This document shows, in pieces, positions 1 to 64,000 of a stretch of DNA of 64,000 nt; position 1 is the stretch's first letter, and every line of letters begins with the position of its first letter. Location of the stretch: NCBI GenBank assembly GCA_950022655.1, contig OX465584.1, positions 3,481,694 to 3,545,693 of the forward strand, in the 5' to 3' direction. The translations under genes and the position numbers were made by a program. The notes beneath the pieces were generated by a model. It saw only the letters and a list, made by a program, of their open reading frames with translations, did no database searches and was not told the DNA's origin. The DNA is from Alentia gelatinosa (taxonomy: Eukaryota; Annelida; Polychaeta; Phyllodocida; Polynoidae).

Positions 1-51
1 CCCTACACCTGCATCCCTAGCCGAAGACTTTGCTGACTGCTCCATAGTGCT
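1..51 (-). other. tRNA-like segment, cut by window edge
   Basis: This is the box A half of the minus-strand tRNA-like element described at 2132-2203. The box B half lies to the left of the window, which confirms that the array continues leftward. Confidence 0.5.
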
Positions 52-82
52 AGATGTATGACGTGGGTCAAATACTTAGTGT

Positions 83-97
83 GGTGGTGGGTTGGGG
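83..97 (+). other. G-rich tract, two-tetrad quadruplex candidate
   Basis: Four G runs of at least two are separated by loops of 1, 1 and 2 bases (GG T GG T GGG TT GGGG). The tract is invariant in the units I compared and stands out in an AT-rich context. A two-layer quadruplex is the most it can form, so stability would be modest. Confidence 0.35.
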
Positions 98-142
98 AAT
101 CAGCGGAGTTTTGAAAGAGCTACAAGATGGGTTCATTCATGT

Positions 143-159
143 AAAACATGACATGTTTT
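143..159. repeat. Inverted repeat with polymorphic T run
   Basis: AAAACAT and ATGTTTT form 7-bp arms around a 3-base loop (GAC). The T run at the right edge is 6 T in some units and 7 in others and is the main cause of the 2152/2153 length difference. Confidence 0.7.
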
Positions 160-246
160 TTGTATTGCTTTTACAACTGCAATGCTATTCCTATTGAATA
201 AAACTTTGCCCATGTAAAACTGGTGTTTTGACTTGTATTAGTTAAG

Positions 247-264
247 ATGAGAGAATTTTCTCAT
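247..264. repeat. Inverted repeat ATGAGA / TCTCAT
   Basis: Perfect 6-bp arms flank a 6-base centre GAATTT. It is present in all units compared. No function is recognised. Confidence 0.55.
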
Positions 265-329
265 ATGTACATTATTCTATTTGAGTCTAATAATGATTGA
301 TATTCATAAAATTCATCATTTGTCTTTGC

Positions 330-381
330 GGTTCTAATTAATCAAAGGAATAAATGACAATTTTCCTTTTAGATTAGAACC
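330..381. repeat. 52-nt two-stage hairpin, pre-miRNA-like in shape
   Basis: The outer arms GGTTCTAAT (330-338) and ATTAGAACC (373-381) are perfectly complementary over 9 bp. The inner arms AAAGGAA (344-350) and TTCCTTT (363-369) add 7 bp, with internal loops of 5 and 3 bases and a 12-base terminal loop. Seen variants fall outside the arms (the C/T next to the left arm) or in the loop (unit 7). It could be a structured RNA segment or the ends of a tiny MITE-like insertion; no target duplication is visible. Confidence 0.45.
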
Positions 382-491
382 CATGGCAATTTCTTGAAAA
401 TTGAATATGAAGATCTCCAAGTATTGTAGAACACATATCTAATTTAATAATTGGGGGTCGTCGTGCTAGTTTTTGATTTAGATATTAATAA

Positions 492-506
492 TATAACAAT
501 GTTATA
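492..506. repeat. Short palindrome TATAACA / TGTTATA
   Basis: Perfect 7-bp arms around a single central A, in an AT-rich context. It is kept in all units compared. It could be a cruciform or dimeric protein site; nothing more can be said. Confidence 0.5.
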
Positions 507-548
507 ACAGTATGATGGATATTAGCCACACAAAACCTGAGTCATTCC

Positions 549-850
549 GTTTCAATTAAAAGTTTATTGATGATAAGTGATGAGTACAGACAAGCTGATG
601 GTATGAGTGATAGATGATTGTATTAAAAACTCAAAATTATAAAAAAATAAATAAATAAATATGCAGTACTATATGTTTGAATATAAAAAGATCTATATGT
701 GAAAGTAGAATTTCTGACAATTACTTAACAAATCTACATGTATATGACATTCTTCAAAGAGCTACACATGTTGATAAAGATGATATGATATTATTCCCAA
801 ATCAGTGCTAAAGATCTATTAGGAGAGTAAGAAACAATATTCAATATTGG
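549..850. other. Invariant AT-rich spacer with (AAAT)n run
   Basis: This stretch has no gene. It contains an A run followed by AAAT repeats at about 642-660 and several ATG-rich words, and ends in CAATATTCAATATTG, an inverted repeat of CAATATT around one C (836-850). Across the 30 copies I saw only three differences here (unit 5 deletion, unit 24 GATTTTATT, units 25 and 28 AAAAAATATTC), fewer than in the flanking parts of the unit. Confidence 0.6.
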
Positions 851-856
851 TTCAAG

Positions 857-864
857 GCGGCCGC
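857..864. other. NotI-type GCGGCCGC site
   Basis: This CpG-containing octamer occurs once per unit, at the left edge of a GC-richer core in an otherwise AT-rich repeat. It is intact in all 30 units, 69 bases before each 68-codon frame. Retention of its two CpGs in every copy suggests little germline CpG methylation decay here or recent homogenisation. Confidence 0.95.
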
Positions 865-872
865 TTATTTAA
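865..872 (+). promoter_or_regulatory. TATA-like TTATTTAA
   Basis: An AT octamer lies directly after the GC-rich NotI site and just before the structured core. Its position would fit a start site near 890-900, but no other promoter element supports it, so this is only a candidate. Confidence 0.2.
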
Positions 873-877
873 CCCGA

Positions 878-968
878 CCAGAGCTAACGTAGTGTGGCTC
901 TGGTGGCCAGTGTAGCAGAGGCCACATGCATATCTCTATACTGTACAGTGAGTTAGTACCAGTAGAGA
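878..968 (+). ncRNA. Three consecutive hairpins, candidate structured RNA
   Basis: Hairpin 1 pairs CCAGAGC (878-884) with GCTCTGG (897-903). Hairpin 2 pairs GTGGCC (903-908) with GGCCAC (920-925), sharing base 903. Hairpin 3 pairs TCTC + TACTG (933-936, 939-943) with CAGTA + GAGA (960-968) around a 2-base bulge, and can extend by TAC/GTA inside. The arms are unchanged in all units compared, so there is no covariation evidence either way. The block may be an RNA fold or a set of DNA palindromes; transcription is not shown by sequence alone. Confidence 0.3.
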
Positions 969-1132
969 CCCCTGGTGTCAAAGTCGGGCATGAGGCTTCA
1001 CAGCTAAGTCAGAGCTCAACTGAGAATCCAGTAAAAACTGAATCTGATACCCGAGTACGCATTGGCAAAATCGAAAACGGACCAGCGGAAAAAGTTGAGG
1101 CTGAATCTAGGTCAAATCTCTCACTCTCTTGA
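926..1132 (+). CDS. 68-codon open frame, unrecognised, doubtful coding
   Basis: The frame starts at the ATG after an in-frame TAG at 890 and ends at TGA. The product would be hydrophilic and rich in Glu, Ser, Val and Lys; there is no signal peptide, membrane segment or motif I recognise. It is open in 29 of 30 units (starting 69 bases after each NotI site) and broken in unit 10. Across units, codon 41 is Asp, Gly or Tyr and codon 45 Arg or His; silent changes occur at codons 40, 48 and 49. Amino-acid-changing variants are at least as common as silent ones, which does not look like purifying selection. The N-terminal codons also form the third hairpin, which could explain conservation without translation. 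Confidence 0.15.
   Translation: MHISILYSELVPVETPGVKVGHEASQLSQSSTENPVKTESDTRVRIGKIENGPAEKVEAESRSNLSLS
1107..1119. repeat. 13-bp direct word CTAGGTCAAATCT, copy 1
   Basis: An identical 13-bp word recurs at 1298-1310, and a shorter GGTCAAAT lies at 66-73. The core AGGTCA is a nuclear-receptor half-site sequence. Spacing is far too wide for a standard paired element, so a regulatory role is speculative. Confidence 0.4.
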
Positions 1133-1261
1133 GATCATATTTTTTCAAATATCTCTGGAACGGATGGGAATTTCTGAATGATTTTTTCACAGGTGGATCG
1201 AGCGTTTCAAGCTGGACTCATCCATACCAGTTGACATGTATATGACGTGATTTAATGTAAG

Positions 1262-1283
1262 AAAATCGAAAATTATTGATTTT
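1262..1283. repeat. Inverted repeat AAAATC / GATTTT
   Basis: 6-bp arms around a 10-base AT-rich centre, unchanged in the units compared. No function is recognised. Confidence 0.4.
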
Positions 1284-1297
1284 GAAAAATGGTAAAA

Positions 1298-1310
1298 CTA
1301 GGTCAAATCT
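1298..1310. repeat. 13-bp direct word CTAGGTCAAATCT, copy 2
   Basis: Exact repeat of 1107-1119. In units 8 and 10 this copy is altered to AGGTTAAATC, which breaks the AGGTCA core there. Confidence 0.4.
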
Positions 1311-1521
1311 TTGGAGTTGTGTCATTTACTTTTAAAACAAAATAGAGACATAACTAAAGAATTAAATGAAAGCTATATATGTTGGCTTTCAGATCTTGTT
1401 TGAAATTTTGTTCAGATTGGTATATATTTGGTGTCATTAATATTTTAGACGAAGCTGATAAAAAAGAATTCTCCAATTTTCTTAAAATCGATAAAAAACA
1501 CATTCAGCTTGAAAGTATCGC
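1311..1521. other. Variable AT-rich spacer
   Basis: No gene or strong structure is seen. Several of the unit-typing variants (CTTTTAAAAC/CTTATAAAAC, AAAATAG/AAACTAG, TATATTT/TAAATTT, TCATTAATA/TTATTAGTA, ATCGAT/ATCAAT) lie here, so this part diverges more between units than the blocks on either side. Confidence 0.6.
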
Positions 1522-1642
1522 AATGACACTTTAGTCGTCATTAAACAAGATATAGATGTTCAATTCTGATGGATGTTTGATGACCTGTGACTAACCACGC
1601 CTTAGGAAATAATTTTTGAAGTTGAGAGATTTCTCTCTCTTC
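1522..1642 (+). ncRNA. Sm-site-like motif between hairpins, snRNA-like candidate
   Basis: A hairpin AATGAC / GTCATT (1522-1527, 1537-1542) is followed by AATTTTTGA (1611-1619), which fits the Sm-site form (A, U run, G, A). Right after it comes GAGAG-ATTT-CTCTC (1624-1637), a position where snRNAs carry a 3' stem-loop. The order hairpin, Sm site, 3' hairpin is snRNA-like, but I do not recognise U1, U2, U4, U5, U7 or a spliced leader, and no proximal sequence element can be named. The block is nearly invariant; units 11 and 15 carry a deletion just after the first hairpin, and unit 19 one substitution just after the last. Confidence 0.15.
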
Positions 1643-1674
1643 AGTAAATGTCAGTCTCTAAATCTGTATTTCTC

Positions 1675-1680
1675 AATAAA
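1675..1680 (+). promoter_or_regulatory. AATAAA polyadenylation-type hexamer
   Basis: AATAAATAAA lies about 540 bases after the open frame. It is frequent by chance in sequence this AT-rich; another AATAAA lies near 197. No GT-rich downstream element is evident. Confidence 0.15.
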
Positions 1681-1842
1681 TAAACACACAACTGAAACAG
1701 GTAATGGTTGAGTCATAGTAGAACAACTTTCCCAAAGTGATTGTCATAGTTTTGTTTCAATCAAACCGTAAACATTTATGGGACACTTGATTTAACTCAT
1801 ACACAGGAAAATATGGTAAAAAAGGTTTAGAATTGGGTTTGG

Positions 1843-1857
1843 AGCGCCATCTAGCAG
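1843..1857 (-). promoter_or_regulatory. CTCF-like binding motif, one per unit
   Basis: On the minus strand this reads CTGCTAGATGGCGCT. Against the CTCF core CCASYAGRKGGCRC it matches 12 of 14 positions, missing only the second and third. It also fits the form TAGATGGCGC that I recall for invertebrate CTCF. All 29 copies that fall in the window are intact and in the same orientation (start positions are given in the unit entries), although the adjacent base is polymorphic (AGATACT or AGACACT). It is known that some vertebrate macrosatellites carry CTCF sites in each unit; whether this site is bound here is inference. Confidence 0.45.
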
Positions 1858-1879
1858 ATACTATATGAAGCATAGTATC
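1857..1879. repeat. Hairpin GATACTAT / ATAGTATC beside the CTCF-like motif
   Basis: Perfect 8-bp arms with a 7-base loop in units carrying ACTATATG. The stem is reduced to 6 bp in ACTGTATG units and weakened further in GACACTG units, so the arm is not conserved as a structure. Confidence 0.4.
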
Positions 1880-1948
1880 ACTCTCCCTTGCAGAGGTTTA
1901 GCTACAATCCCCATGCTCTCAATGGAATGAGAATGCGAATGGAGAGTG
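1879..1948. repeat. 70-nt inverted repeat CACTCTCC / GGAGAGTG
   Basis: Perfect 8-bp arms at 1879-1886 and 1941-1948 enclose 54 bases that contain the word pair GCTCTCAATGG and GAATGAGAATG. It sits directly after the previous hairpin and the CTCF-like motif, giving a compact structured stretch of about 105 bp. Function unknown. Confidence 0.4.
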
Positions 1949-2131
1949 CGTAACTTGTACAGGTGCGCTTGGATCGACCTGCGAAGACGATTTTTGTCTT
2001 GTTTTGCCCATTTTGGAATATGTATGTTATTCCACATAGTTAGATCCTTTTCATAAAACTTTAGGTTATGTCAGCGATCGCCAGTCAGATCTTTTTTGTA
2101 CAGTAAAATATAGAAAAAAACGAAAAGTCAA
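1949..2131. other. Spacer before the tRNA-like segment
   Basis: No gene is seen. It holds the 3' unit-typing variants (GCGTAAC/GCATAAC at its left edge, CCACATAG/CCACTTAG, ATAAAAC/ATAAACC, GCGATCG/GCAATCG) and a short A run near 2114 that is one base longer in unit 28. Confidence 0.6.
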
Positions 2132-2203
2132 GGCCAACATGGGGATCGAACTCCCTACACCTGCATCCCTAGCCGAAGACTTTGCTGACTGCTCCATAGT
2201 GCT
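2132..2203 (-). other. tRNA-like segment (degenerate tRNA or tRNA-derived SINE head)
   Basis: Read on the minus strand, this 72-nt stretch has a box A-like TGGAGCAGTCAG and a box B-like AGTTCGATCCC. The distance between them (tRNA position 8 to 53) is exactly 45 nt, as in a tRNA with a short variable loop. It is not a working tRNA: only 2 of 7 acceptor pairs form, the T stem has mismatches, and no anticodon stem-loop with U33 is clear. It recurs in every unit from 21 bases before to 50 bases after each unit start listed here; the first copy is cut by the window edge (1-51). It could act as a weak internal Pol III promoter or be a fossil of a tRNA-derived SINE. Variants hitting it include GATCCAAC in the copy near 38739 and AGCCAAAGAC near 15095. 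Confidence 0.5.
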
Positions 2204-4305
2204 AAATGTATGACGTGGGTCAAATACTTAGTGTGGTGGTGGGTTGGGGAATCAGCGGAGTTTTGAAAGAGCTACAAGATGGGTTCATTCATGTAAAACA
2301 TGACATGTTTTTTTGTATTGCTTTTACAACTGCAATGCTATTCCTATTGAATAAAACTTTGCCCATGTAAAACTGGTGTTTTGACTTGTATTAGTTAAGA
2401 TGAGAGAATTTTCTCATATGTACATTATTCTATTTGAGTCTAATAATGATTGATATTCATAAAATTCATCATTTGTCTTTGTGGTTCTAATTAATCAAAG
2501 GAATAAATGACAATTTTCCTTTTAGATTAGAACCCATGGCAATTTCTTGAAAATTGAATATGAAGATCTCCAAGTATTGTAGAACACATATCTAATTTAA
2601 TAATTGGGGGTCGTCGTGCTAGTTTTTGATTTAGATATTAATAATATAACAATGTTATAACAGTATGATGGATATTAGCCACACAAAACCTGAGTCATTC
2701 TGTTTCAATTAAAAGTTTATTGATGATAAGTGATGAGTACAGACAAGCTGATGGTATGAGTGATAGATGATTGTATTAAAAACTCAAAATTATAAAAAAA
2801 TAAATAAATAAATATGCAGTACTATATGTTTGAATATAAAAAGATCTATATGTGAAAGTAGAATTTCTGACAATTACTTAACAAATCTACATGTATATGA
2901 CATTCTTCAAAGAGCTACACATGTTGATAAAGATGATATGATATTATTCCCAAATCAGTGCTAAAGATCTATTAGGAGAGTAAGAAACAATATTCAATAT
3001 TGGTTCAAGGCGGCCGCTTATTTAACCCGACCAGAGCTAACGTAGTGTGGCTCTGGTGGCCAGTGTAGCAGAGGCCACATGCATATCTCTATACTGTACA
3101 GTGAGTTAGTACCAGTAGAGACCCCTGGTGTCAAAGTCGGGCATGAGGCTTCACAGCTAAGTCAGAGCTCAACTGAGAATCCAGTAAAAACTGAATCTGG
3201 TACCCGAGTACACATTGGCAAAATCGAAAACGGACCAGCGGAAAAAGTTGAGGCTGAATCTAGGTCAAATCTCTCACTCTCTTGAGATCATATTTTTTCA
3301 AATATCTCCGGAATGGATGGGAATTTCTGAATGATTTTTTCACAGGTGGATCGAGCGTCTCGAGCTGGACTCATCCATACCAGTTGACATGTATATGACG
3401 TGATTTAATGTAAGAAAATCGAAAATTATTGATTTTGAAAAATGGTAAAACTAGGTCAAATCTTTGGAGTTGTGTCATTTACTTATAAAACAAAATAGAG
3501 ACATAACTAAAGAATTAAATGAAAGCTATATATGTTGGCTTTCAGATCTTGTTTGAAATTTTGTTCAGATTGGTATAAATTTGGTGTTATTAGTATTTTA
3601 GACGAAGCTGATAAAAAAGAATTCTCCAATTTTCTTAAAATCAATAAAAAACACATTCAGCTTGAAAGTATCGCAATGACACTTTAGTCGTCATTAAACA
3701 AGATATAGATGTTCAATTCTGATGGATGTTTGATGACCTGTGACTAACCACGCCTTAGGAAATAATTTTTGAAGTTGAGAGATTTCTCTCTCTTCAGTAA
3801 ATGTCAGTCTCTAAATCTGTATTTCTCAATAAATAAACACACAACTGAAACAGGTAATGGTTGAGTCATAGTAGAACAACTTTCCCAAAGTGATTGTCAT
3901 AGTTTTGTTTCAATCAAACCGTAAACATTTATGGGACACTTGATTTAACTCATACACAGGAAAATATGGTAAAAAAGGTTTAGAATTGGGTTTGGAGCGC
4001 CATCTAGCAGATACTGTATGAAGCATAGTATCACTCTCCCTTGCAGAGGTTTAGCTACAATCCCCATGCTCTCAATGGAATGAGAATGCGAATGGAGAGT
4101 GCGTAACTTGTACAGGTGCGCTTGGATCGACCTGCGAAGACGATTTTTGTCTTGTTTTGCCCATTTTGGAATATGTATGTTATTCCACATAGTTAGATCC
4201 TTTTCATAAAACTTTAGGTTATGTCAGCGATCGCCAGTCAGATCTTTTTTGTACAGTAAAATATAGAAAAAAACGAAAAGTCAAGGCCAACATGGGGATC
4301 GAACT
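2153..4305 (+). repeat. Unit 2 (2153 bp), H-type
   Basis: Type B / codon 41 Gly with Arg45 to His / m2 / 3' a with ACTGTATG. It shares the private variants GCTAAATG, TACACATT and GTCTCGAGC with unit 20, 18 units away; unit 24 shares the last two. NotI 3010, frame 3079-3285, CTCF-like 3996-4010. The minus-strand 81-codon frame 3945-4190 is intact. Confidence 0.98.
3945..4190 (-). other. 81-codon minus-strand frame, not coding
   Basis: This frame is open in ten units only (2, 4, 19, 21, 22, 24, 25, 26, 28, 29). In the others it is lost by removal of the ATG (CCACTTAG variant), by the ACTATATG variant that creates a stop, or by private stops in units 20 and 27. It overlaps the CTCF-like motif and the hairpins. 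The product has no motif I recognise. Frequent independent loss indicates a chance open frame. Confidence 0.1.
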
Positions 4306-6457
4306 CCCTACACCTGCATCCCTAGCCGAAGACTTTGCTGACTGCTCCATAGTGCTAGATGTATGACGTGGGTCAAATACTTAGTGTGGTGGTGGGTTGG
4401 GGAATCAGCGGAGTTTTGAAAGAGCTACAAGATGGGTTCATTCATGTAAAACATGACATGTTTTTTGTATTGCTTTTACAACTGCAATGCTATTCCTATT
4501 GAATAAAACTTTGCCCATGTAAAACTGGTGTTTTGACTTGTATTAGTTAAGATGAGAGAATTTTCTCATATGTACATTATTCTATTTGAGTCTAATAATG
4601 ATTGATATTCATAAAATTCATCATTTGTCTTTGCGGTTCTAATTAATCAAAGGAATAAATGACAATTTTCCTTTTAGATTAGAACCCATGGCAATTTCTT
4701 GAAAATTGAATATGAAGATCTCCAAGTATTGTAGAACACATATCTAATTTAATAATTGGGGGTCGTCGTGCTAGTTTTTGATTTAGATATTAATAATATA
4801 ACAATGTTATAACAGTATGATGGATATTAGCCACACAAAACCTGAGTCATTCCGTTTCAATTAAAAGTTTATTGATGATAAGTGATGAGTACAGACAAGC
4901 TGATGGTATGAGTGATAGATGATTGTATTAAAAACTCAAAATTATAAAAAAATAAATAAATAAATATGCAGTACTATATGTTTGAATATAAAAAGATCTA
5001 TATGTGAAAGTAGAATTTCTGACAATTACTTAACAAATCTACATGTATATGACATTCTTCAAAGAGCTACACATGTTGATAAAGATGATATGATATTATT
5101 CCCAAATCAGTGCTAAAGATCTATTAGGAGAGTAAGAAACAATATTCAATATTGGTTCAAGGCGGCCGCTTATTTAACCCGACCAGAGCTAACGTAGTGT
5201 GGCTCTGGTGGCCAGTGTAGCAGAGGCCACATGCATATCTCTATACTGTACAGTGAGTTAGTACCAGTAGAGACCCCTGGTGTCAAAGTCGGGCATGAGG
5301 CTTCACAGCTAAGTCAGAGCTCAACTGAGAATCCAGTAAAAACTGAATCTGATACCCGAGTACGCATTGGCAAAATCGAAAACGGACCAGCGGAAAAAGT
5401 TGAGGCTGAATCTAGGTCAAATCTCTCACTCTCTTGAGATCATATTTTTTCAAATATCTCTGGAACGGATGGGAATTTCTGAATGATTTTTTCACAGGTG
5501 GATCGAGCGTTTCAAGCTGGACTCATCCATACCAGTTGACATGTATATGACGTGATTTAATGTAAGAAAATCGAAAATTATTGATTTTGAAAAATGGTAA
5601 AACTAGGTCAAATCTTTGGAGTTGTGTCATTTACTTATAAAACAAAATAGAGACATAACTAAAGAATTAAATGAAAGCTATATATGTTGGCTTTCAGATC
5701 TTGTTTGAAATTTTGTTCAGATTGGTATAAATTTGGTGTTATTAGTATTTTAGACGAAGCTGATAAAAAAGAATTCTCCAATTTTCTTAAAATCAATAAA
5801 AAACACATTCAGCTTGAAAGTATCGCAATGACACTTTAGTCGTCATTAAACAAGATATAGATGTTCAATTCTGATGGATGTTTGATGACCTGTGACTAAC
5901 CACGCCTTAGGAAATAATTTTTGAAGTTGAGAGATTTCTCTCTCTTCAGTAAATGTCAGTCTCTAAATCTGTATTTCTCAATAAATAAACACACAACTGA
6001 AACAGGTAATGGTTGAGTCATAGTAGAACAACTTTCCCAAAGTGATTGTCATAGTTTTGTTTCAATCAAACCGTAAACATTTATGGGACACTTGATTTAA
6101 CTCATACACAGGAAAATATGGTAAAAAAGGTTTAGAATTGGGTTTGGAGCGCCATCTAGCAGACACTGTATGAAGCATAGTATCACTCTCCCTTGCAGAG
6201 GTTTAGCTACAATCCCCATGCTCTCAATGGAATGAGAATGCGAATGGAGAGTGCATAACTTGTACAGGTGCGCTTGGATCGACCTGCGAAGACGATTTTT
6301 GTCTTGTTTTGCCCATTTTGGAATATGTATGTTATTCCACTTAGTTAGATCCTTTTCATAAACCTTTAGGTTATGTCAGCAATCGCCAGTCAGATCTTTT
6401 TTGTACAGTAAAATATAGAAAAAAACGAAAAGTCAAGGCCAACATGGGGATCGAACT
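4306..6457 (+). repeat. Unit 3 (2152 bp)
   Basis: Type A / Asp41 / m2 / 3' b with GACACTG. NotI 5162, frame 5231-5437, CTCF-like 6148-6162. The minus-strand frame has lost its ATG (CCACTTAG variant). It is a mosaic: an A-type 5' part joined to the b-type 3' part also found in units 5-8. Confidence 0.98.
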
Positions 6458-8610
6458 CCCTACACCTGCATCCCTAGCCGAAGACTTTGCTGACTGCTCC
6501 ATAGTGCTAGATGTATGACGTGGGTCAAATACTTAGTGTGGTGGTGGGTTGGGGAATCAGCGGAGTTTTGAAAGAGCTACAAGATGGGTTCATTCATGTA
6601 AAACATGACATGTTTTTTTGTATTGCTTTTACAACTGCAATGCTATTCCTATTGAATAAAACTTTGCCCATGTAAAACTGGTGTTTTGACTTGTATTAGT
6701 TAAGATGAGAGAATTTTCTCATATGTACATTATTCTATTTGAGTCTAATAATGATTGATATTCATAAAATTCATCATTTGTCTTTGTGGTTCTAATTAAT
6801 CAAAGGAATAAATGACAATTTTCCTTTTAGATTAGAACCCATGGCAATTTCTTGAAAATTGAATATGAAGATCTCCAAGTATTATAGAACACATATCTAA
6901 TTTAATAATTGGGGGTCGTCGTGCTAGTTTTTGATTTAGATATTAATAATATAACAATGTTATAACAGTATGATGGATATTAGCCACACAAAACCTGAGT
7001 CATTCTGTTTCAATTAAAAGTTTATTGATGATAAGTGATGAGTACAGACAAGCTGATGGTATGAGTGATAGATGATTGTATTAAAAACTCAAAATTATAA
7101 AAAAATAAATAAATAAATATGCAGTACTATATGTTTGAATATAAAAAGATCTATATGTGAAAGTAGAATTTCTGACAATTACTTAACAAATCTACATGTA
7201 TATGACATTCTTCAAAGAGCTACACATGTTGATAAAGATGATATGATATTATTCCCAAATCAGTGCTAAAGATCTATTAGGAGAGTAAGAAACAATATTC
7301 AATATTGGTTCAAGGCGGCCGCTTATTTAACCCGACCAGAGCTAACGTAGTGTGGCTCTGGTGGCCAGTGTAGCAGAGGCCACATGCATATCTCTATACT
7401 GTACAGTGAGTTAGTACCAGTAGAGACCCCTGGTGTCAAAGTCGGGCATGAGGCTTCACAGCTAAGTCAGAGCTCAACTGAGAATCCAGTAAAAACTGAA
7501 TCTGGTACCCGAGTACGCATTGGCAAAATCGAAAACGGACCAGCGGAAAAAGTTGAGGCTGAATCTAGGTCAAATCTCTCACTCTCTTGAGATCATATTT
7601 TTTCAAATATCTCCGGAACGGATGGGAATTTCTGAATGATTTTTTCACAGGTGGATCGAGCGTTTCAAGCTGGACTCATCCATACCAGTTGACATGTATA
7701 TGACGTGATTTAATGTAAGAAAATCGAAAATTATTGATTTTGAAAAATGGTAAAACTAGGTCAAATCTTTGGAGTTGTGTCATTTACTTATAAAACAAAA
7801 TAGAGACATAACTGAAGAATTAAATGAAAGCTATATATGTTGGCTTTCAGATCTTGTTTGAAATTTTGTTCAGATTGGTATATATTTGGTGTTATTAATA
7901 TTTTAGACGAAGCTGATAAAAAAGAATTCTCCAATTTTCTTAAAATCGATAAAAAACACATTCAGCTTGAAAGTATCGCAATGACACTTTAGTCGTCATT
8001 AAACAAGATATAGATGTTCAATTCTGATGGATGTTTGATGACCTGTGACTAACCACGCCTTAGGAAATAATTTTTGAAGTTGAGAGATTTCTCTCTCTTC
8101 AGTAAATGTCAGTCTCTAAATCTGTATTTCTCAATAAATAAACACACAACTGAAACAGGTAATGGTTGAGTCATAGTAGAACAACTTTCCCAAAGTGATT
8201 GTCATAGTTTTGTTTCAATCAAACCGTAAACATTTATGGGACACTTGATTTAACTCATACACAGGAAAATATGGTAAAAAAGGTTTAGAATTGGGTTTGG
8301 AGCGCCATCTAGCAGACACTGTATGAAGCATAGTATCACTCTCCCTTGCAGAGGTTTAGCTACAATCCCCATGCTCTCAATGGAATGAGAATGCGAATGG
8401 AGAGTGCGTAACTTGTACAGGTGCGCTTGGATCGACCTGCGAAGACGATTTTTGTCTTGTTTTGCCCATTTTGGAATATGTATGTTATTCCACATAGTTA
8501 GATCCTTTTCATAAAACTTTAGGTTATGTCAGCGATCGCCAGTCAGATCTTTTTTGTACAGTAAAATATAGAAAAAAACGAAAAGTCAAGGCCAACATGG
8601 GGATCGAACT
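6458..8610 (+). repeat. Unit 4 (2153 bp)
   Basis: Type B with ATTATAG / Gly41 / m3 with AACTGAAG / GACACTG followed by 3' a markers. NotI 7315, frame 7384-7590, CTCF-like 8301-8315. The minus-strand frame 8250-8495 is intact with one substitution (Tyr to Cys near its C-terminus). AACTGAAG recurs only in unit 30. Confidence 0.98.
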
Positions 8611-10761
8611 CCCTACACCTGCATCCCTAGCCGAAGACTTTGCTGACTGCTCCATAGTGCTAGATGTATGACATGGGTCAAATACTTAGTGTGGTGGTGG
8701 GTTGGGGAATCAGCGGAGTTTTGAAAGAGCTACAAGATGGGTTCATTCATGTAAAACATGACATGTTTTTTGTATTGCTTTTACAACTGCAATGCTATTC
8801 CTATTGAATAAAACTTTGCCCATGTAAAACTGGTGTTTTGACTTGTATTAGTTAAGATGAGAGAATTTTCTCATATGTACATTATTCTATTTGAGTCTAA
8901 TAATGATTGATATTCATAAAATTCATCATTTGTCTTTGCGGTTCTAATTAATCAAAGGAATAAATGACAATTTTCCTTTTAGATTAGAACCCATGGCAAT
9001 TTCTTGAAAATTGAATATGAAGATCTCCAAGTATTGTAGAACACATATCTAATTTAATAATTGGGGGTCGTCGTGCTAGTTTTTGATTTAGATATTAATA
9101 ATATAACAATGTTATAACAGTATGATGGATATTAGCCACACAAAACCTGAGTCATTCCGTTTCAATTAAAAGTTTATTGATGATAAGTGATGAGTACAGA
9201 CAAGCTGATGGTATGAGTGATAGATGATTGTATTAAAAACTCAAAATTATAAAAAAATAAATAAATAAATATGCAGTACTATATGTTTGAATATAAAAAG
9301 ATCTATATGTGAAAGTAGAATTTCTGACAATTACTTAACAAATCTACATGTATATGACATTCTTCAAAGAGCTACACATGTTGATAAAGATGATATGATA
9401 TTATTCCCAATCAGTGCTAAAGATCTATTAGGAGAGTAAGAAACAATATTCAATATTGGTTCAAGGCGGCCGCTTATTTAACCCGACCAGAGCTAACGTA
9501 GTGTGGCTCTGGTGGCCAGTGTAGCAGAGGCCACATGCATATCTCTATACTGTACAGTGAGTTAGTACCAGTAGAGACCCCTGGTGTCAAAGTCGGGCAT
9601 GAGGCTTCACAGCTAAGTCAGAGCTCAACTGAGAATCCAGTAAAAACTGAATCATATACCCGAGTACGCATTGGCAAGATCGAAAACGGACCAGCGGAAA
9701 AAGTTGAGGCTGAATCTAGGTCAAATCTCTCACTCTCTTGAGATCATATTTTTTCAAATATCTCTGGAATGGATGGGAATTTCTGAATGATTTTTTCACA
9801 GGTGGATCGAGCGTTTCAAGCTGGACTCATCCATACCAGTTGACATGTATATGACGTGATTTAATGTAAGAAAATCGAAAATTATTGATTTTGAAAAATG
9901 GTAAAACTAGGTCAAATCTTTGGAGTTGTGTCATTTACTTATAAAACAAACTAGAGACATAACTAAAGAATTAAATGAAAGCTATATATGTTGGCTTTCA
10001 GATCTTGTTTGAAATTTTGTTCAGATTGGTATATATTTGGTGTTATTAATATTTTAGACGAAGCTGATAAAAAAGAATTCTCCAATTTTCTTAAAATCGA
10101 TAAAAAACACATTCAGCTTGAAAGTATCGCAATGACACTTTAGTCGTCATTAAACAAGATATAGATGTTCAATTCTGATGGATGTTTGATGACCTGTGAC
10201 TAACCACGCCTTAGGAAATAATTTTTGAAGTTGAGAGATTTCTCTCTCTTCAGTAAATGTCAGTCTCTAAATCTGTATTTCTCAATAAATAAACACACAA
10301 CTGAAACAGGTAATGGTTGAGTCATAGTAGAACAACTTTCCCAAAGTGATTGTCATAGTTTTGTTTCAATCAAACCGTAAACATTTATGGGACACTTGAT
10401 TTAACTCATACACAGGAAAATATGGTAAAAAAGGTTTAGAATTGGGTTTGGAGCGCCATCTAGCAGACACTGTATGAAGCATAGTATCACTCTCCCTTGC
10501 AGAGGTTTAGCTACAATCCCCATGCTCTCAATGGAATGAGAATGCGAATGGAGAGTGCATAACTTGTACAGGTGCGCTTGGATCGACCTGCGAAGACGAT
10601 TTTTGTCTTGTTTTGCCCATTTTGGAATATGTATGTTATTCCACTTAGTTAGATCCTTTTCATAAACCTTTAGGTTATGTCAGCAATCGCCAGTCAGATC
10701 TTTTTTGTACAGTAAAATATAGAAAAAAACGAAAAGTCAAGGCCAACATGGGGATCGAACT
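8611..10761 (+). repeat. Unit 5 (2151 bp)
   Basis: Type A / codon 41 Tyr, from two adjacent changes TCT GAT to TCA TAT / m3 with AAACTAG / 3' b with GACACTG. It has a unique one-base deletion (CCCAATCAG) near 9409 and a unique GACATGGG near the start. NotI 9466, frame 9535-9741, CTCF-like 10452-10466. Confidence 0.98.
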
Positions 10762-12914
10762 CCCTACACCTGCATCCCTAGCCGAAGACTTTGCTGACTG
10801 CTCCATAGTGCTAGATGTATGACGTGGGTCAAATACTTAGTGTGGTGGTGGGTTGGGGAATCAGCGGAGTTTTGAAAGAGCTACAAGATAGGTTCATTCA
10901 TGTAAAACATGACATGTTTTTTTGTATTGCTTTTACAACTGCAATGCTATTCCTATTGAATAAAACTTTGCCCATGTAAAACTGGTGTTTTGACTTGTAT
11001 TAGTTAAGATGAGAGAATTTTCTCATATGTACATTATTCTATTTGAGTCTAATAATGATTGATATTCATAAAATTCATCATTTGTCTTTGTGGTTCTAAT
11101 TAATCAAAGGAATAAATGACAATTTTCCTTTTAGATTAGAACCCATGGCAATTTCTTGAAAATTGAATATGAAGATCTCCAAGTATTGTAGAACACATAT
11201 CTAATTTAATAATTGGGGGTCGTCGTGCTAGTTTTTGATTTAGATATTAATAATATAACAATGTTATAACAGTATGATGGATATTAGCCACAAAAAACCT
11301 GAGTCATTCTGTTTCAATTAAAAGTTTATTGATGATAAGTGATGAGTACAGACAAGCTGATGGTATGAGTGATAGATGATTGTATTAAAAACTCAAAATT
11401 ATAAAAAAATAAATAAATAAATATGCAGTACTATATGTTTGAATATAAAAAGATCTATATGTGAAAGTAGAATTTCTGACAATTACTTAACAAATCTACA
11501 TGTATATGACATTCTTCAAAGAGCTACACATGTTGATAAAGATGATATGATATTATTCCCAAATCAGTGCTAAAGATCTATTAGGAGAGTAAGAAACAAT
11601 ATTCAATATTGGTTCAAGGCGGCCGCTTATTTAACCCGACCAGAGCTAACGTAGTGTGGCTCTGGTGGCCAGTGTAGCAGAGGCCACATGCATATCTCTA
11701 TACTGTACAGTGAGTTAGTACCAGTAGAGACCCCTGGTGTCAAAGTCGGGCATGAGGCTTCACAGCTAAGTCAGAGCTCAACTGAGAATCCAGTAAAAAC
11801 TGAATCTGATACCCGAGTACGCATTGGCAAGATCGAAAACGGACCAGCGGAAAAAGTTGAGGCTGAATCTAGGTCAAATCTCTCACTCTCTTGAGATCAT
11901 ATTTTTTCAAATATCTCTGGAATGGATGGGAATTTCTGAATGATTTTTTCACAGGTGGATCGAGCGTTTCAAGCTGGACTCATCCATACCAGTTGACATG
12001 TATATGACGTGATTTAATGTAAGAAAATCGAAAATTATTGATTTTGAAAAATGGTAAAACTAGGTCAAATCTTTGGAGTTGTGTCATTTACTTATAAAAC
12101 AAACTAGAGACATAACTAAAGAATTAAATGAAAGCTATATATGTTGGCTTTCAGATCTTGTTTGAAATTTTGTTCAGATTGGTATATATTTGGTGTTATT
12201 AATATTTTAGACGAAGCTGATAAAAAAGAATTCTCCAATTTTCTTAAAATCGATAAAAAACACATTCAGCTTGAAAGTATCGCAATGACACTTTAGTCGT
12301 CATTAAACAAGATATAGATGTTCAATTCTGATGGATGTTTGATGACCTGTGACTAACCACGCCTTAGGAAATAATTTTTGAAGTTGAGAGATTTCTCTCT
12401 CTTCAGTAAATGTCAGTCTCTAAATCTGTATTTCTCAATAAATAAACACACAACTGAAACAGGTAATGGTTGAGTCATAGTAGAACAACTTTCCCAAAGT
12501 GATTGTCATAGTTTTGTTTCAATCAAACCGTAAACATTTATGGGACACTTGATTTAACTCATACACAGGAAAATATGGTAAAAAAGGTTTAGAATTGGGT
12601 TTGGAGCGCCATCTAGCAGACACTGTATGAAGCATAGTATCACTCTCCCTTGCAGAGGTTTAGCTACAATCCCCATGCTCTCAATGGAATGAGAATGCGA
12701 ATGGAGAGTGCATAACTTGTACAGGTGCGCTTGGATCGACCTGCGAAGACGATTTTTGTCTTGTTTTGCCCATTTTGGAATATGTATGTTATTCCACTTA
12801 GTTAGATCCTTTTCATAAACCTTTAGGTTATGTCAGCAATCGCCAGTCAGATCTTTTTTGTACAGTAAAATATAGAAAAAAACGAAAAGTCAAGGCCAAC
12901 ATGGGGATCGAACT
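10762..12914 (+). repeat. Unit 6 (2153 bp)
   Basis: Type B with GATAGG and CACAAAAAACC / Asp41 with GGCAAGATC / m3 with AAACTAG / 3' b with GACACTG. NotI 11619, frame 11688-11894, CTCF-like 12605-12619. Almost identical to unit 7. Confidence 0.98.
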
Positions 12915-15067
12915 CCCTACACCTGCATCCCTAGCCGAAGACTTTGCTGACTGCTCCATAGTGCTAGATGTATGACGTGGGTCAAATACTTAGTGTGGTG
13001 GTGGGTTGGGGAATCAGCGGAGTTTTGAAAGAGCTACAAGATAGGTTCATTCATGTAAAACATGACATGTTTTTTTGTATTGCTTTTACAACTGCAATGC
13101 TATTCCTATTGAATAAAACTTTGCCCATGTAAAACTGGTGTTTTGACTTGTATTAGTTAAGATGAGAGAATTTTCTCATATGTACATTATTCTATTTGAG
13201 TCTAATAATGATTGATATTCATAAAATTCATCATTTGTCTTTGTGGTTCTAATTAATCAAAGGAATAAATGACAGTTTTCCTTTTAGATTAGAACCCATG
13301 GCAATTTCTTGAAAATTGAATATGAAGATCTCCAAGTATTGTAGAACACATATCTAATTTAATAATTGGGGGTCGTCGTGCTAGTTTTTGATTTAGATAT
13401 TAATAATATAACAATGTTATAACAGTATGATGGATATTAGCCACAAAAAACCTGAGTCATTCTGTTTCAATTAAAAGTTTATTGATGATAAGTGATGAGT
13501 ACAGACAAGCTGATGGTATGAGTGATAGATGATTGTATTAAAAACTCAAAATTATAAAAAAATAAATAAATAAATATGCAGTACTATATGTTTGAATATA
13601 AAAAGATCTATATGTGAAAGTAGAATTTCTGACAATTACTTAACAAATCTACATGTATATGACATTCTTCAAAGAGCTACACATGTTGATAAAGATGATA
13701 TGATATTATTCCCAAATCAGTGCTAAAGATCTATTAGGAGAGTAAGAAACAATATTCAATATTGGTTCAAGGCGGCCGCTTATTTAACCCGACCAGAGCT
13801 AACGTAGTGTGGCTCTGGTGGCCAGTGTAGCAGAGGCCACATGCATATCTCTATACTGTACAGTGAGTTAGTACCAGTAGAGACCCCTGGTGTCAAAGTC
13901 GGGCATGAGGCTTCACAGCTAAGTCAGAGCTCAACTGAGAATCCAGTAAAAACTGAATCTGATACCCGAGTACGCATTGGCAAGATCGAAAACGGACCAG
14001 CGGAAAAAGTTGAGGCTGAATCTAGGTCAAATCTCTCACTCTCTTGAGATCATATTTTTTCAAATATCTCTGGAATGGATGGGAATTTCTGAATGATTTT
14101 TTCACAGGTGGATCGAGCGTTTCAAGCTGGACTCATCCATACCAGTTGACATGTATATGACGTGATTTAATGTAAGAAAATCGAAAATTATTGATTTTGA
14201 AAAATGGTAAAACTAGGTCAAATCTTTGGAGTTGTGTCATTTACTTATAAAACAAACTAGAGACATAACTAAAGAATTAAATGAAAGCTATATATGTTGG
14301 CTTTCAGATCTTGTTTGAAATTTTGTTCAGATTGGTATATATTTGGTGTTATTAATATTTTAGACGAAGCTGATAAAAAAGAATTCTCCAATTTTCTTAA
14401 AATCGATAAAAAACACATTCAGCTTGAAAGTATCGCAATGACACTTTAGTCGTCATTAAACAAGATATAGATGTTCAATTCTGATGGATGTTTGATGACC
14501 TGTGACTAACCACGCCTTAGGAAATAATTTTTGAAGTTGAGAGATTTCTCTCTCTTCAGTAAATGTCAGTCTCTAAATCTGTATTTCTCAATAAATAAAC
14601 ACACAACTGAAACAGGTAATGGTTGAGTCATAGTAGAACAACTTTCCCAAAGTGATTGTCATAGTTTTGTTTCAATCAAACCGTAAACATTTATGGGACA
14701 CTTGATTTAACTCATACACAGGAAAATATGGTAAAAAAGGTTTAGAATTGGGTTTGGAGCGCCATCTAGCAGACACTGTATGAAGCATAGTATCACTCTC
14801 CCTTGCAGAGGTTTAGCTACAATCCCCATGCTCTCAATGGAATGAGAATGCGAATGGAGAGTGCATAACTTGTACAGGTGCGCTTGGATCGACCTGCGAA
14901 GACGATTTTTGTCTTGTTTTGCCCATTTTGGAATATGTATGTTATTCCACTTAGTTAGATCCTTTTCATAAACCTTTAGGTTATGTCAGCAATCGCCAGT
15001 CAGATCTTTTTTGTACAGTAAAATATAGAAAAAAACGAAAAGTCAAGGCCAACATGGGGATCGAACT
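12915..15067 (+). repeat. Unit 7 (2153 bp)
   Basis: Same type as unit 6 and nearly identical to it. The private change GACAGTTTTCC lies in the loop of the 330-381 type inverted repeat. NotI 13772, frame 13841-14047, CTCF-like 14758-14772. Confidence 0.98.
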
Positions 15068-17220
15068 CCCTACACCTGCATCCCTAGCCAAAGACTTTGC
15101 TGACTGCTCCATAGTGCTAGATGTATGACGTGGGTCAAATACTTAGTGTGGTGGTGGGTTGGGGAATCAGCGGAGTTTTGAAAGAGCTACAAGATAGGTT
15201 CATTCATGTAAAACATGACATGTTTTTTTGTATTGCTTTTACAACTGCAATGCTATTCCTATTGAATAAAACTTTGCCCATGTAAAACTGGTGTTTTGAC
15301 TTGTATTAGTTAAGATGAGAGAATTTTCTCATATGTACATTATTCTATTTGAGTCTAATAATGATTGATATTCATAAAATTCATCATTTGTCTTTGTGGT
15401 TCTAATTAATCAAAGGAATAAATGACAATTTTCCTTTTAGATTAGAACCCATGGCAATTTCTTGAAAATTGAATATGAAGATCTCCAAGTATTGTAGAAC
15501 ACATATCTAATTTAATAATTGGGGGTCGTCGTGCTAGTTTTTGATTTAGATATTAATAATATAACAATGTTATAACAGTATGATGGATATTAGCCACACA
15601 AAACCTGAGTCATTCTGTTTCAATTAAAAGTTTATTGATGATAAGTGATGAGTACAGACAAGCTGATGGTATGAGTGATAGATGATTGTATTAAAAACTC
15701 AAAATTATAAAAAAATAAATAAATAAATATGCAGTACTATATGTTTGAATATAAAAAGATCTATATGTGAAAGTAGAATTTCTGACAATTACTTAACAAA
15801 TCTACATGTATATGACATTCTTCAAAGAGCTACACATGTTGATAAAGATGATATGATATTATTCCCAAATCAGTGCTAAAGATCTATTAGGAGAGTAAGA
15901 AACAATATTCAATATTGGTTCAAGGCGGCCGCTTATTTAACCCGACCAGAGCTAACGTAGTGTGGCTCTGGTGGCCAGTGTAGCAGAGGCCACATGCATA
16001 TCTCTATACTGTACAGTGAGTTAGTACCAGTAGAGACCCCTGGTGTCAAAGTCGGGCATGAGGCTTCACAGCTAAGTCAGAGCTCAACTGAGAATCCAGT
16101 AAAAACTGAATCTGGTACCCGAGTACGCATTGGCAAAATCGAAAACGGACCAGCGGAAAAAGTTGAGGCTGAATCTAGGTCAAATCTCTCACTCTCTTGA
16201 GATCATATTTTTTCAAATATCTCCGGAACGGATGGGAATTTCTGAATGATTTTTTCACAGGTGGATCGAGCGTTTCGAGCTGGACTCATCCATACCAGTT
16301 GACATGTATTTGACGTGATTTAATGTAAGAAAATCGAAAATTATTGATTTTGAAAAATGGTAAAACTAGGTTAAATCTTTGGAGTTGTGTCATTTACTTA
16401 TAAAACAAACTAGAGACATAACTAAAGAATTAAATGAAAGCTATATATGTTGGCTTTCAGATCTTGTTTGAAATTTTGTTCAGATTGGTATATATTTGGT
16501 GTTATTAATATTTTAGACGAAGCTGATAAAAAAGAATTCTCCAATTTTCTTAAAATCGATAAAAAACACATTCAGCTTGAAAGTATCGCAATGACACTTT
16601 AGTCGTCATTAAACAAGATATAGATGTTCAATTCTGATGGATGTTTGATGACCTGTGACTAACCACGCCTTAGGAAATAATTTTTGAAGTTGAGAGATTT
16701 CTCTCTCTTCAGTAAATGTCAGTCTCTAAATCTGTATTTCTCAATAAATAAACACACAACTGAAACAGGTAATGGTTGAGTCATAGTAGAACAACTTTCC
16801 CAAAGTGATTGTCATAGTTTTGTTTCAATCAAACCGTAAACATTTATGGGACACTTGATTTAACTCATACACAGGAAAATATGGTAAAAAAGGTTTAGAA
16901 TTGGGTTTGGAGCGCCATCTAGCAGACACTGTATGAAGCATAGTATCACTCTCCCTTGCAGAGGTTTAGCTACAATCCCCATGCTCTCAATGGAATGAGA
17001 ATGCGAATGGAGAGTGCATAACTTGTACAGGTGCGCTTGGATCGACCTGCGAAGACGATTTTTGTCTTGTTTTGCCCATTTTGGAATATGTATGTTATTC
17101 CACTTAGTTAGATCCTTTTCATAAACCTTTAGGTTATGTCAGCAATCGCCAGTCAGATCTTTTTTGTACAGTAAAATATAGAAAAAAACGAAAAGTCAAG
17201 GCCAACATGGGGATCGAACT
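15068..17220 (+). repeat. Unit 8 (2153 bp)
   Basis: Type B with GATAGG / Gly41 / TTTCGAGC, TGTATTTGACG and AGGTTAAATC / m3 / 3' b with GACACTG. AGCCAAAGAC in the tRNA-like segment is private. NotI 15925, frame 15994-16200, CTCF-like 16911-16925. It shares the TTTCGAGC-AGGTTAAATC haplotype with unit 10. Confidence 0.98.
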
Positions 17221-19373
17221 CCCTACACCTGCATCCCTAGCCGAAGACTTTGCTGACTGCTCCATAGTGCTAGATGTATGACGTGGGTCAAATACTTAGT
17301 GTGGTGGTGGGTTGGGGAATCAGCGGAGTTTTGAAAGAGCTACAAGATGGGTTCATTCATGTAAAACATGACATGTTTTTTTGTATTGCTTTTACAACTG
17401 CAATGCTATTCCTATTGAATAAAACTTTGCCCATGTAAAACTGGTGTTTTGACTTGTATTAGTTAAGATGAGAGAATTTTCTCATATGTACATTATTCTA
17501 TTTGAGTCTAATAATGATTGATATTCATAAAATTCATCATTTGTCTTTGTGGTTCTAATTAATCAAAGGAATAAATGACAATTTTCCTTTTAGATTAGAA
17601 CCCATGGCAATTTCTTGAAAATTGAATATGAAGATCTCCAAGTATTATAGAACACATATCTAATTTAATAATTGGGGGTCGTCGTGCTAGTTTTTGATTT
17701 AGATATTAATAATATAACAATGTTATAACAGTATGATGGATATTAGCCACACAAAACCTGAGTCATTCTGTTTCAATTAAAAGTTTATTGATGATAAGTG
17801 ATGAGTACAGACAAGCTGATGGTATGAGTGATAGATGATTGTATTAAAAACTCAAAATTATAAAAAAATAAATAAATAAATATGCAGTACTATATGTTTG
17901 AATATAAAAAGATCTATATGTGAAAGTAGAATTTCTGACAATTACTTAACAAATCTACATGTATATGACATTCTTCAAAGAGCTACACATGTTGATAAAG
18001 ATGATATGATATTATTCCCAAATCAGTGCTAAAGATCTATTAGGAGAGTAAGAAACAATATTCAATATTGGTTCAAGGCGGCCGCTTATTTAACCCGACC
18101 AGAGCTAACGTAGTGTGGCTCTGGTGGCCAGTGTAGCAGAGGCCACATGCATATCTCTATACTGTACAGTGAGTTAGTACCAGTAGAGACCCCTGGTGTC
18201 AAAGTCGGGCATGAGGCTTCACAGCTAAGTCAGAGCTCAACTGAGAATCCAGTAAAAACTGAATCTGGTACCCGAGTACGCATTGGCAAAATCGAAAACG
18301 GACCAGCGGAAAAAGTTGAGGCTGAATCTAGGTCAAATCTCTCACTCTCTTGAGATCATATTTTTTCAAATATCTCCGGAACGGATGGGAATTTCTGAAT
18401 GATTTTTTCACAGGTGGATCGAGCGTTTCAAGCTGGACTCATCCATACCAGTTAACATGTATATGACGTGATTTAATGTAAGAAAATCGAAAATTATTGA
18501 TTTTGAAAAATGGTAAAACTAGGTCAAATCTTTGGAGTTGTGTCATTTACTTTTAAAACAAAATAGAGACATAACTAAAGAATTAAATGAAAGCTATATA
18601 TGTTGGCTTTCAGATCTTGTTTGAAATTTTGTTCAGATTGGTATATATTTGGTGTCATTAATATTTTAGACGAAGCTGATAAAAAAGAATTCTCCAATTT
18701 TCTTAAAATCGATAAAAAACACATTCAGCTTGAAAGTATCGCAATGACACTTTAGTCGTCATTAAACAAGATATAGATGTTCAATTCTGATGGATGTTTG
18801 ATGACCTGTGACTAACCACGCCTTAGGAAATAATTTTTGAAGTTGAGAGATTTCTCTCTCTTCAGTAAATGTCAGTCTCTAAATCTGTATTTCTCAATAA
18901 ATAAACACACAACTGAAACAGGTAATGGTTGAGTCATAGTAGAACAACTTTCCCAAAGTGATTGTCATAGTTTTGTTTCAATCAAACCGTAAACATTTAT
19001 GGGACACTTGATTTAACTCATACACAGGAAAATATGGTAAAAAAGGTTTAGAATTGGGTTTGGAGCGCCATCTAGCAGATACTGTATGAAGCATAGTATC
19101 ACTCTCCCTTGCAGAGGTTTAGCTACAATCCCCATGCTCTCAATGGAATGAGAATGCGAATGGAGAGTGCATAACTTGTACAGGTGCGCTTGGATCGACC
19201 TGCGAAGACGATTTTTGTCTTGTTTTGCCCATTTTGGAATATGTATGTTATTCCACTTAGTTAGATCCTTTTCATAAACCTTTAGGTTATGTCAGCAATC
19301 GCCAGTCAGATCTTTTTTGTACAGTAAAATATAGAAAAAAACGAAAAGTCAAGGCCAACATGGGGATCGAACT
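17221..19373 (+). repeat. Unit 9 (2153 bp)
   Basis: Type B with ATTATAG / Gly41 / GTTAACATG / m1 / 3' b with ATACTG. NotI 18078, frame 18147-18353, CTCF-like 19064-19078. Nearly identical to unit 11, two units downstream. Confidence 0.98.
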
Positions 19374-62421: not shown

Positions 62422-64000
62422 CCCTACACCTGCATCCCTAGCCGAAGACTTTGCTGACTGCTCCATAGTGCTAGATGTATGACGTGGGTCAAATACTTAG
62501 TGTGGTGGTGGGTTGGGGAATCAGCGGAGTTTTGAAAGAGCTACAAGATGGGTTCATTCATGTAAAACATGACATGTTTTTTGTATTGCTTTTACAACTG
62601 CAATGCTATTCCTATTGAATAAAACTTTGCCCATGTAAAACTGGTGTTTTGACTTGTATTAGTTAAGATGAGAGAATTTTCTCATATGTACATTATTCTA
62701 TTTGAGTCTAATAATGATCGATATTCATGAAATTCATCATTTGTCTTTGCGGTTCTAATTAATCAAAGGAATAAATGACAATTTTCCTTTTAGATTAGAA
62801 CCCATGGCAATTTCTTGAAAATTGAATATGAAGATCTCCAAGTATTGTAGAACACATATCTAATTTAATAATTGGAGGTCGTCGTGCTAGTTTTTGATTT
62901 AGATATTAATAATATAACAATGTTATAACAGTATGATGGATATTAGCCACACAAAACCTGAGTCATTCCGGTTCAATTAAAAGTTTATTGATGATAAGTG
63001 ATGAGTACAGACAAGCTGATGGTATGAGTGATAGATGATTGTATTAAAAACTCAAAATTATAAAAAAATAAATAAATAAATATGCAGTACTATATGTTTG
63101 AATATAAAAAGATCTATATGTGAAAGTAGAATTTCTGACAATTACTTAACAAATCTACATGTATATGACATTCTTCAAAGAGCTACACATGTTGATAAAG
63201 ATGATATGATATTATTCCCAAATCAGTGCTAAAGATCTATTAGGAGAGTAAGAAACAATATTCAATATTGGTTCAAGGCGGCCGCTTATTTAACCCGACC
63301 AGAGCTAACGTAGTGTGGCTCTGGTGGCCAGTGTAGCAGAGGCCACATGCATATCTCTATACTGTACAGTGAGTTAGTACCAGTAGAGACCCCTGGTGTC
63401 AAAGTCGGGCATGAGGCTTCACAGCTAAGTCAGAGCTCAACTGAGAATCCAGTAAAAACTGAATCTGGTACCCGAGTACGCATTGGCAAAATTGAAAACG
63501 GACCAGCGGAAAAAGTTGAGGCTGAATCTAGGTCAAATCTCTCACTCTCTTGAGATCATATTTTTTCAAATATCTCCGGAACGGATGGGAATTTCTGAAT
63601 GATTTTTTCACAGGTGGATCGAGCGTTTCAAGCTGGACTCATCCATACCAGTTGACATGTATATGACGTGATTTAATGTAAGAAAATCGAAAATTATTGA
63701 TTTTGAAAAATGGTAAAACTAGGTCAAATCTTTGGAGTTGTGTCATTTACTTATAAAACAAAATAGAGACATAACTGAAGAATTAAATGAAAGCTATATA
63801 TGTTGGCTTTCAGATCTTGTTTGAAATTTTGTTCAGATTGGTATATATTTGGTGTTATTAATATTTTAGACGAAGCTGATAAAAAAGAATTCTCCAATTT
63901 TCTTAAAATCAATAAAAAACACATTCAGCTTGAAAGTATCGCAATGACACTTTAGTCGTCATTAAACAAGATATAGATGTTCAATTCTGATGGATGTTTG
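62422..64000 (+). repeat. Unit 30, partial (first 1579 bp)
   Basis: The window ends inside this unit, before its CTCF-like motif. Type C markers combined with T6 / Gly41 and a silent ATT at codon 49 / m3 with AACTGAAG but ATCAAT. NotI 63278, frame 63347-63553. The combination is a further mosaic not seen elsewhere in the window. Confidence 0.98.

Follow-up and report, generated by a model that had tools for sequence, protein, structure and literature searches.

The whole window, a stretch of 64 kb of DNA, is one head-to-tail array of about 29.7 units of about 2152 bases, with no flank or boundary inside it, and each full unit carries one copy of a short sequence that is a real, good match to a fly-type CTCF core. 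Most likely this is an ordinary homogenized array of macrosatellite-like kind, and the good fly-type CTCF core in each unit rides along. The constancy of the core and its single direction are quite probably by-products of the amplification and homogenization of whole units, and the binding of CTCF to it is a prediction only.

The array and its repeat unit

The array extends over at least 64 kb with a repeat of 2.15 kb, and no gene was detected in it. The window was cut into 29 units, 28 of them by the spacing of the motif and the 29th at 2152 bases, and the 1579 leftover bases (a partial 30th unit) were left out of the alignment. The consensus of the 29 aligned units is 2152 bases long, and the pairwise identity between them is 98.7–99.95%. 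The array is AT-rich, with a GC content of about 35% in the window, and the ratio of observed to expected CpG in the unit is 0.61. Macrosatellites are described as tandem arrays with units of about 2 to more than 12 kb (PMC3218863), and a 2152-base unit in about 29.7 copies within the window falls in this size class.

One CTCF-type core per unit

The 15-mer CTGCTAGATGGCGCT is found on the minus strand in 29 exact copies in the window, 2151–2154 bases apart, one in each of the 29 full units and all in the same direction (Table 1). The 64-kb window holds no copy of it on the plus strand and none with one to three mismatches. The initial annotation had described a 15-mer unchanged in 29 copies, in one orientation and about every 2.15 kb, which is borne out by these counts. 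Its match to the CTCF core at 12 of 14 positions was likewise confirmed by inspection against the consensus CCANNAGRKGGCRS. Compared to CCASYAGRKGGCRSY, the core has two mismatches in 15. Sites with at most two mismatches to CCASYAGRKGGCRSY number 29, against 1.13 expected per 64 kb, and none of 100 shuffles reaches 29, but the 29 copies are one independent site, for which the expectation at this threshold is about 0.04 per unit.

The bases neighboring the core had also been said to vary. This is the case on the right, where there are variable columns 2 and 6 away, but not on the left, where the nearest one is 85 away. An imperfect inverted repeat, GATACT...AGTATC, was seen by eye at 1857–1879, adjoining the core, and the two variable columns closest to the core on the right (alignment columns 1862 and 1866) fall in it.

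Table 1. Positions in the window of the array, one repeat unit and the CTCF-type sites
Feature	Position	Strand	Basis
Head-to-tail array	1..64000	.	motif spacing 2151–2154 and 29-unit alignment
One repeat unit, arbitrary phase	1..2153	.	no Pfam match at curated cut-off, no Rfam match at gathering and no tRNA in the parts searched
Second CTCF-like site TTGACACCAGGGGTCTCTA, first copy	963..981	-	30 exact copies in window; 209-column invariant run
CTCF-type core CTGCTAGATGGCGCT, unit 1	1843..1857	-	exact match and matrix scores
CTCF-type core, unit 2	3996..4010	-	exact match
CTCF-type core, unit 3	6148..6162	-	exact match
CTCF-type core, unit 4	8301..8315	-	exact match
CTCF-type core, unit 5	10452..10466	-	exact match
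CTCF-type core, unit 6	12605..12619	-	exact match
CTCF-type core, unit 7	14758..14772	-	exact match
CTCF-type core, unit 8	16911..16925	-	exact match
CTCF-type core, unit 9	19064..19078	-	exact match
CTCF-type core, unit 10	21217..21231	-	exact match
CTCF-type core, unit 11	23369..23383	-	exact match
CTCF-type core, unit 12	25523..25537	-	exact match
CTCF-type core, unit 13	27675..27689	-	exact match
CTCF-type core, unit 14	29827..29841	-	exact match
CTCF-type core, unit 15	31978..31992	-	exact match
CTCF-type core, unit 16	34131..34145	-	exact match
CTCF-type core, unit 17	36283..36297	-	exact match
CTCF-type core, unit 18	38435..38449	-	exact match
CTCF-type core, unit 19	40587..40601	-	exact match
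CTCF-type core, unit 20	42740..42754	-	exact match
CTCF-type core, unit 21	44892..44906	-	exact match
CTCF-type core, unit 22	47044..47058	-	exact match
CTCF-type core, unit 23	49196..49210	-	exact match
CTCF-type core, unit 24	51349..51363	-	exact match
CTCF-type core, unit 25	53502..53516	-	exact match
CTCF-type core, unit 26	55654..55668	-	exact match
CTCF-type core, unit 27	57806..57820	-	exact match
CTCF-type core, unit 28	59959..59973	-	exact match
CTCF-type core, unit 29	62112..62126	-	exact match

Intactness and direction of the core

The intactness of the core and its uniform direction had been read as a sign of function, and this argument fails. Of 2158 alignment columns, 67 are variable (56 by substitution), and 66.9% of the 15-column windows in the 29-unit alignment are invariant; that a given 15-mer is intact is thus what one would expect. 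By exact count, 1587 of the 2152 15-mers of the unit have 29 or more copies in the window, as do 263 of the 460 that include a CpG; in these counts, a single miss can be masked by the partial 30th copy for 15-mers from the first 1579 bases of the unit. With 12 of the 39 CpGs in the consensus variable, a CpG too is more likely to be intact than not. The single direction, in turn, is given by the head-to-tail layout.

The invariant run that holds the core does not stand out either. It is 100 columns long, 27.8% of columns lie in runs of at least that length, and the fourth longest invariant run reaches 100 columns in 24% of random placements. The longest invariant run covers 209 columns (alignment columns 838–1046), and since 6.6% of random placements match it, it is not claimed as a constrained element. 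In unit 1 this run lies at about 835–1043 and has 47% GC within an otherwise AT-rich unit; by eye, a GC-rich word followed by TATTTAA is present near its start. The run could be a promoter-like core, yet chance produces one as long at the rate just given.

At such low divergence, a test for constraint is almost without power, and selection on the core is possible. Selection would only be detectable by comparing diverged families of units or different species. The observation chiefly calls for care: where the units of an array are 99% identical, a perfectly conserved and uniformly oriented motif is the null expectation.

Homogenization of the array

The average difference between neighboring units is 11.5 columns, compared to 15.0 under permuted order, and only 2 of 20,000 permutations were as low. 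Among pairs of biallelic columns with the minor state in at least two units, 170 of 630 show all four combinations. The similarity of neighbors, along with the reshuffling of variants, suggests local homogenization with recombination or conversion, as under concerted evolution, which is presented as the standard account of satellite homogeneity (PMC8122249). Distant units can also be nearly identical; for example, units 2 and 20 have a single difference. Copies with one or two differences lie far apart in a second group as well (units 1, 13, 14, 17 and 18), and such pairs point to exchange over long distances or duplication of blocks in the recent past.

Transitions affect 11 of 78 CpG bases compared to 13 of 668 other C or G bases (P = 7e-6), with the consensus standing in for the ancestor in this count. 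This CpG decay suggests that the array is likely methylated in the germline.

The by-product explanation would start from one founder unit in which a strong fly-type CTCF core was present by chance or had been acquired, and unequal crossing-over and gene conversion would then have copied the core along with all other parts of the unit. Given a host CTCF of fly-like specificity, the core would probably be occupied in open chromatin. A long array with CpG decay of the kind left by germline methylation is, however, more likely to be closed for the most part, and a net role as a boundary is therefore not the default expectation. Such a role for the array is no more than a possibility.

Matrix scores and the identity of the factor

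Scoring with a CTCF matrix had been proposed as a check, and the outcome depends on the matrix. The Drosophila (MA0531.1) and human (MA0139.1) matrices of JASPAR were used, both entered by hand. In the fly matrix as entered, the column totals are all equal, which speaks for its correctness without proving it. Under this matrix, the core scores 20.74 of 26.45 bits, well ahead of any other place in the unit. None of 2000 dinucleotide shuffles reaches this score (the highest shuffle has 20.21), the expectation is 0.0002 per unit, and 7 of 20,000 column-permuted matrices find as good a match in the unit. A Drosophila CTCF site at which a 2-bp mutation is reported to have abolished reporter activity (PMC7880997) scores lower than the core, at 13.6 bits, and its mutant scores −4.2. 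The human matrix, on the other hand, gives the core a weak 10.21 of 32.76 bits. Judged by expectation and by permuted matrices, this human-type score does not stand out from chance, with 0.087 expected per unit and 2278 of 20,000 permuted matrices reaching it somewhere in the unit.

In the human CTCF matrix, position 2 of the core is a C in nearly every site. The core found here has a T at this position and contains a single CpG, at position 12. For human CTCF in vitro, methylation is described as inhibitory at position 2 and as almost without effect at position 12 (PMC8084297). Weak binding is accordingly predicted for a vertebrate-type CTCF, and a methylation switch would find little to act on within the core itself. 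For a fly-like CTCF, binding at the core is predicted. CTCF binding is plausible, and the core is a candidate site.

A second CTCF-like site is present on the same strand, TTGACACCAGGGGTCTCTA, which is likewise intact, with an exact copy at each of the 30 places that the window has for it. It scores 14.67 bits under the human matrix (at 963) and 11.05 bits under the fly matrix (at 964), making it better than the core under the former and weaker under the latter. Its human score is reached by 26 of 2000 shuffles and by 267 of 20,000 permuted human matrices.

The rarity of the fly-matrix match is a point against the by-product explanation. With so few permuted matrices doing as well, pure coincidence is uncomfortable unless many recognizable motifs are counted, and the second site adds a little against coincidence. 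These small P values apply to a chosen motif, and a reader could have recognized any of many. It is nevertheless unlikely that the core is there by chance only, or is the site of some other zinc-finger or YY1/Pho-type factor with an ATGGCG core, with CTCF never binding to it. Many motifs exist, and one excellent match in a 2.15-kb unit is unsurprising after the alternatives are counted; ATGGCG is also contained in the YY1 consensus. The core, however, exceeds the reporter-tested fly site in its fly CTCF score, and YY1 is not a better fit. No match to the YY1 consensus AANATGGCGGC with fewer than three mismatches is present in the unit, and nine places have three, the core and eight others (consensus words were used for this, and no YY1 matrix). 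YY1 was rejected as the true factor, the consensus match at the core being no better than background.

Comparison with known arrays and invertebrate CTCF

The array had been likened to DXZ4, and part of the likeness stands. As in DXZ4/Dxz4 of the mammalian X chromosome, a kilobase unit that is not obviously protein coding is repeated head to tail, with a CTCF-type site in the unit, here always in the same direction. The resemblance does not extend to the composition, the partner site, the human-matrix score or position 2 of the core, which has T for C. The DXZ4 unit is 3 kb long and rich in GC and CpG, whereas the array described here has the low GC content, CpG ratio and CpG decay given above. 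DXZ4 also has an internal promoter and paired CTCF–YY1 sites conserved across mammals, while the unit here is without a YY1 match above background. Lastly, DXZ4 is X-linked, with CTCF occupancy on the inactive X. The high GC and CpG incidence, the promoter and the CTCF site are all described as kept in DXZ4 (PMC3218863), and the CTCF site of DXZ4/Dxz4 is described as paired with a YY1 site (PMC6985041).

Could the array be a CTCF-occupied boundary or anchor of the DXZ4 kind, with many sites in one direction that halt loop extrusion and keep domains apart, and with selection maintaining a site in each unit? This is distinctly improbable. One strong fly-type core per unit in one direction within a kilobase-unit array is what it would look like, and Dxz4 contacts are reported to depend on orientation (PMC6985041, PMC5899087), but the core shows no constraint above the background of invariant windows, and the differences in GC and CpG, the YY1 partner site and the human-matrix score all count against it. 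The invertebrate reports point both ways. In cephalopods, domain boundaries are described as enriched in CTCF motifs, and CTCF-like motifs are reported for loop anchors (PMC12407938), which favors the idea in some invertebrates. In echinoderms, CTCF motifs are said to be enriched at boundaries, although much less than in zebrafish and with no orientation pattern, and the domains, as in flies, are not tied to motif orientation (PMC13317027). In the annelid Dimorphilus, they are reported mostly at promoters and without a clear directional arrangement (PMC7854359). By analogy, a bound CTCF site in an invertebrate may, but need not, be a directional boundary.

The bolder version, in which a DXZ4-like CTCF array arose independently outside vertebrates and tens of same-direction sites at 2.15-kb spacing would together halt loop extrusion as a single strong, directional barrier, is highly improbable. 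In that case, a core without C at position 2 and with a CpG only at position 12 would let the array retain CTCF under methylation, in contrast to an array switched by methylation. Were the array both bound and active as a boundary, it would mean that tandem CTCF arrays evolve repeatedly, and it would test the role of motif direction outside vertebrates. 

The D4Z4 macrosatellite at 4q35, which encodes DUX4, is similar in having a kilobase tandem unit with a CTCF site. It differs in being a 3.3-kb subtelomeric human repeat, and its multimerization is reported to cause the loss of both CTCF binding and insulation (PMC2639723). This also counts against a boundary at the present array, and D4Z4 is a reminder that the CTCF sites of a long array need not be occupied.

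Another large tandem unit with a CTCF site is the tRNA tandem repeat at human 1q23.3. Its unit is 7.3 kb long and GC-rich with five tRNA genes, whereas no tRNA was found here. A 24-bp CTCF site is described as conserved there from human to mouse, unlike the remainder of the unit outside the tRNA genes (PMC4041453). The conservation of that site is thus seen across species, and that of the core here within one array only; the 1q23.3 array shows what convincing evidence for a conserved CTCF site looks like. The human gamma-satellite, with a GC-rich unit of about 220 bp, is a further satellite DNA with CTCF-type sites. Unlike the array studied here, it is a pericentric human satellite, and its CTCF sites are mentioned together with a protective effect against the silencing of a transgene close by (PMC8122249). 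Among the listed literature matches on CTCF, satellites, macrosatellites and Drosophila (titles and the starts of abstracts), the human D4Z4 and 1q23.3 arrays appear and no CTCF array in an invertebrate satellite does.

Searches for genes, RNAs and relatives of the unit

Nine open reading frames of 51–81 amino acids are listed for positions 1–6500. Five of them were scanned against Pfam, with no match at the curated cut-off: three had no match of any kind, and two had matches only at E values of 0.06–0.16, far below curated cut-offs. Two reading frames were searched for protein homologues, and none were found in a large protein set. Positions 1–8700 gave no Rfam match at gathering thresholds, and a lax Rfam scan of positions 1–2400 gave five snoRNA or miRNA matches at chance level (E 1.2–4.8), all far below gathering scores. 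ARAGORN found no tRNA or tmRNA in the whole window. A gene within the unit was rejected on these results.

No similar DNA was found among phages and plasmids (searched with one unit), in IMG/VR (two words) or in GTDB contigs (one word), and no diverged relatives of the unit were found in these same collections, which hold phages, plasmids, viral contigs and prokaryotes and possibly leave out the window’s own genome, so the negative says little.

A shorter internal periodicity was rejected, as there is no tandem repeat with a period of up to 500. The only internal repeats of one unit are four two-copy direct repeats of 14–22 bases and one short palindrome. A Helitron 3' end (a hairpin followed by CTAG on the minus strand, beside the motif) was rejected by inspection only, the distance from hairpin to end and the following base being a misfit to the rule for such ends. 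B-box-like and A-box-like words span the unit junction on the minus strand, at about 2142–2152 and 2195–2205, and are followed by a T run. In the consensus, the B-box-like word is at 2142 and the A-box-like word at 42, each with two mismatches. A tRNA-derived (SINE) piece over the junction is unsupported, as seven places match the A box and two match the B box equally well and there is no match to a tRNA model. In a scan for structured RNA over 124 windows, the best fold had z = −4.4, at 1261–1400.
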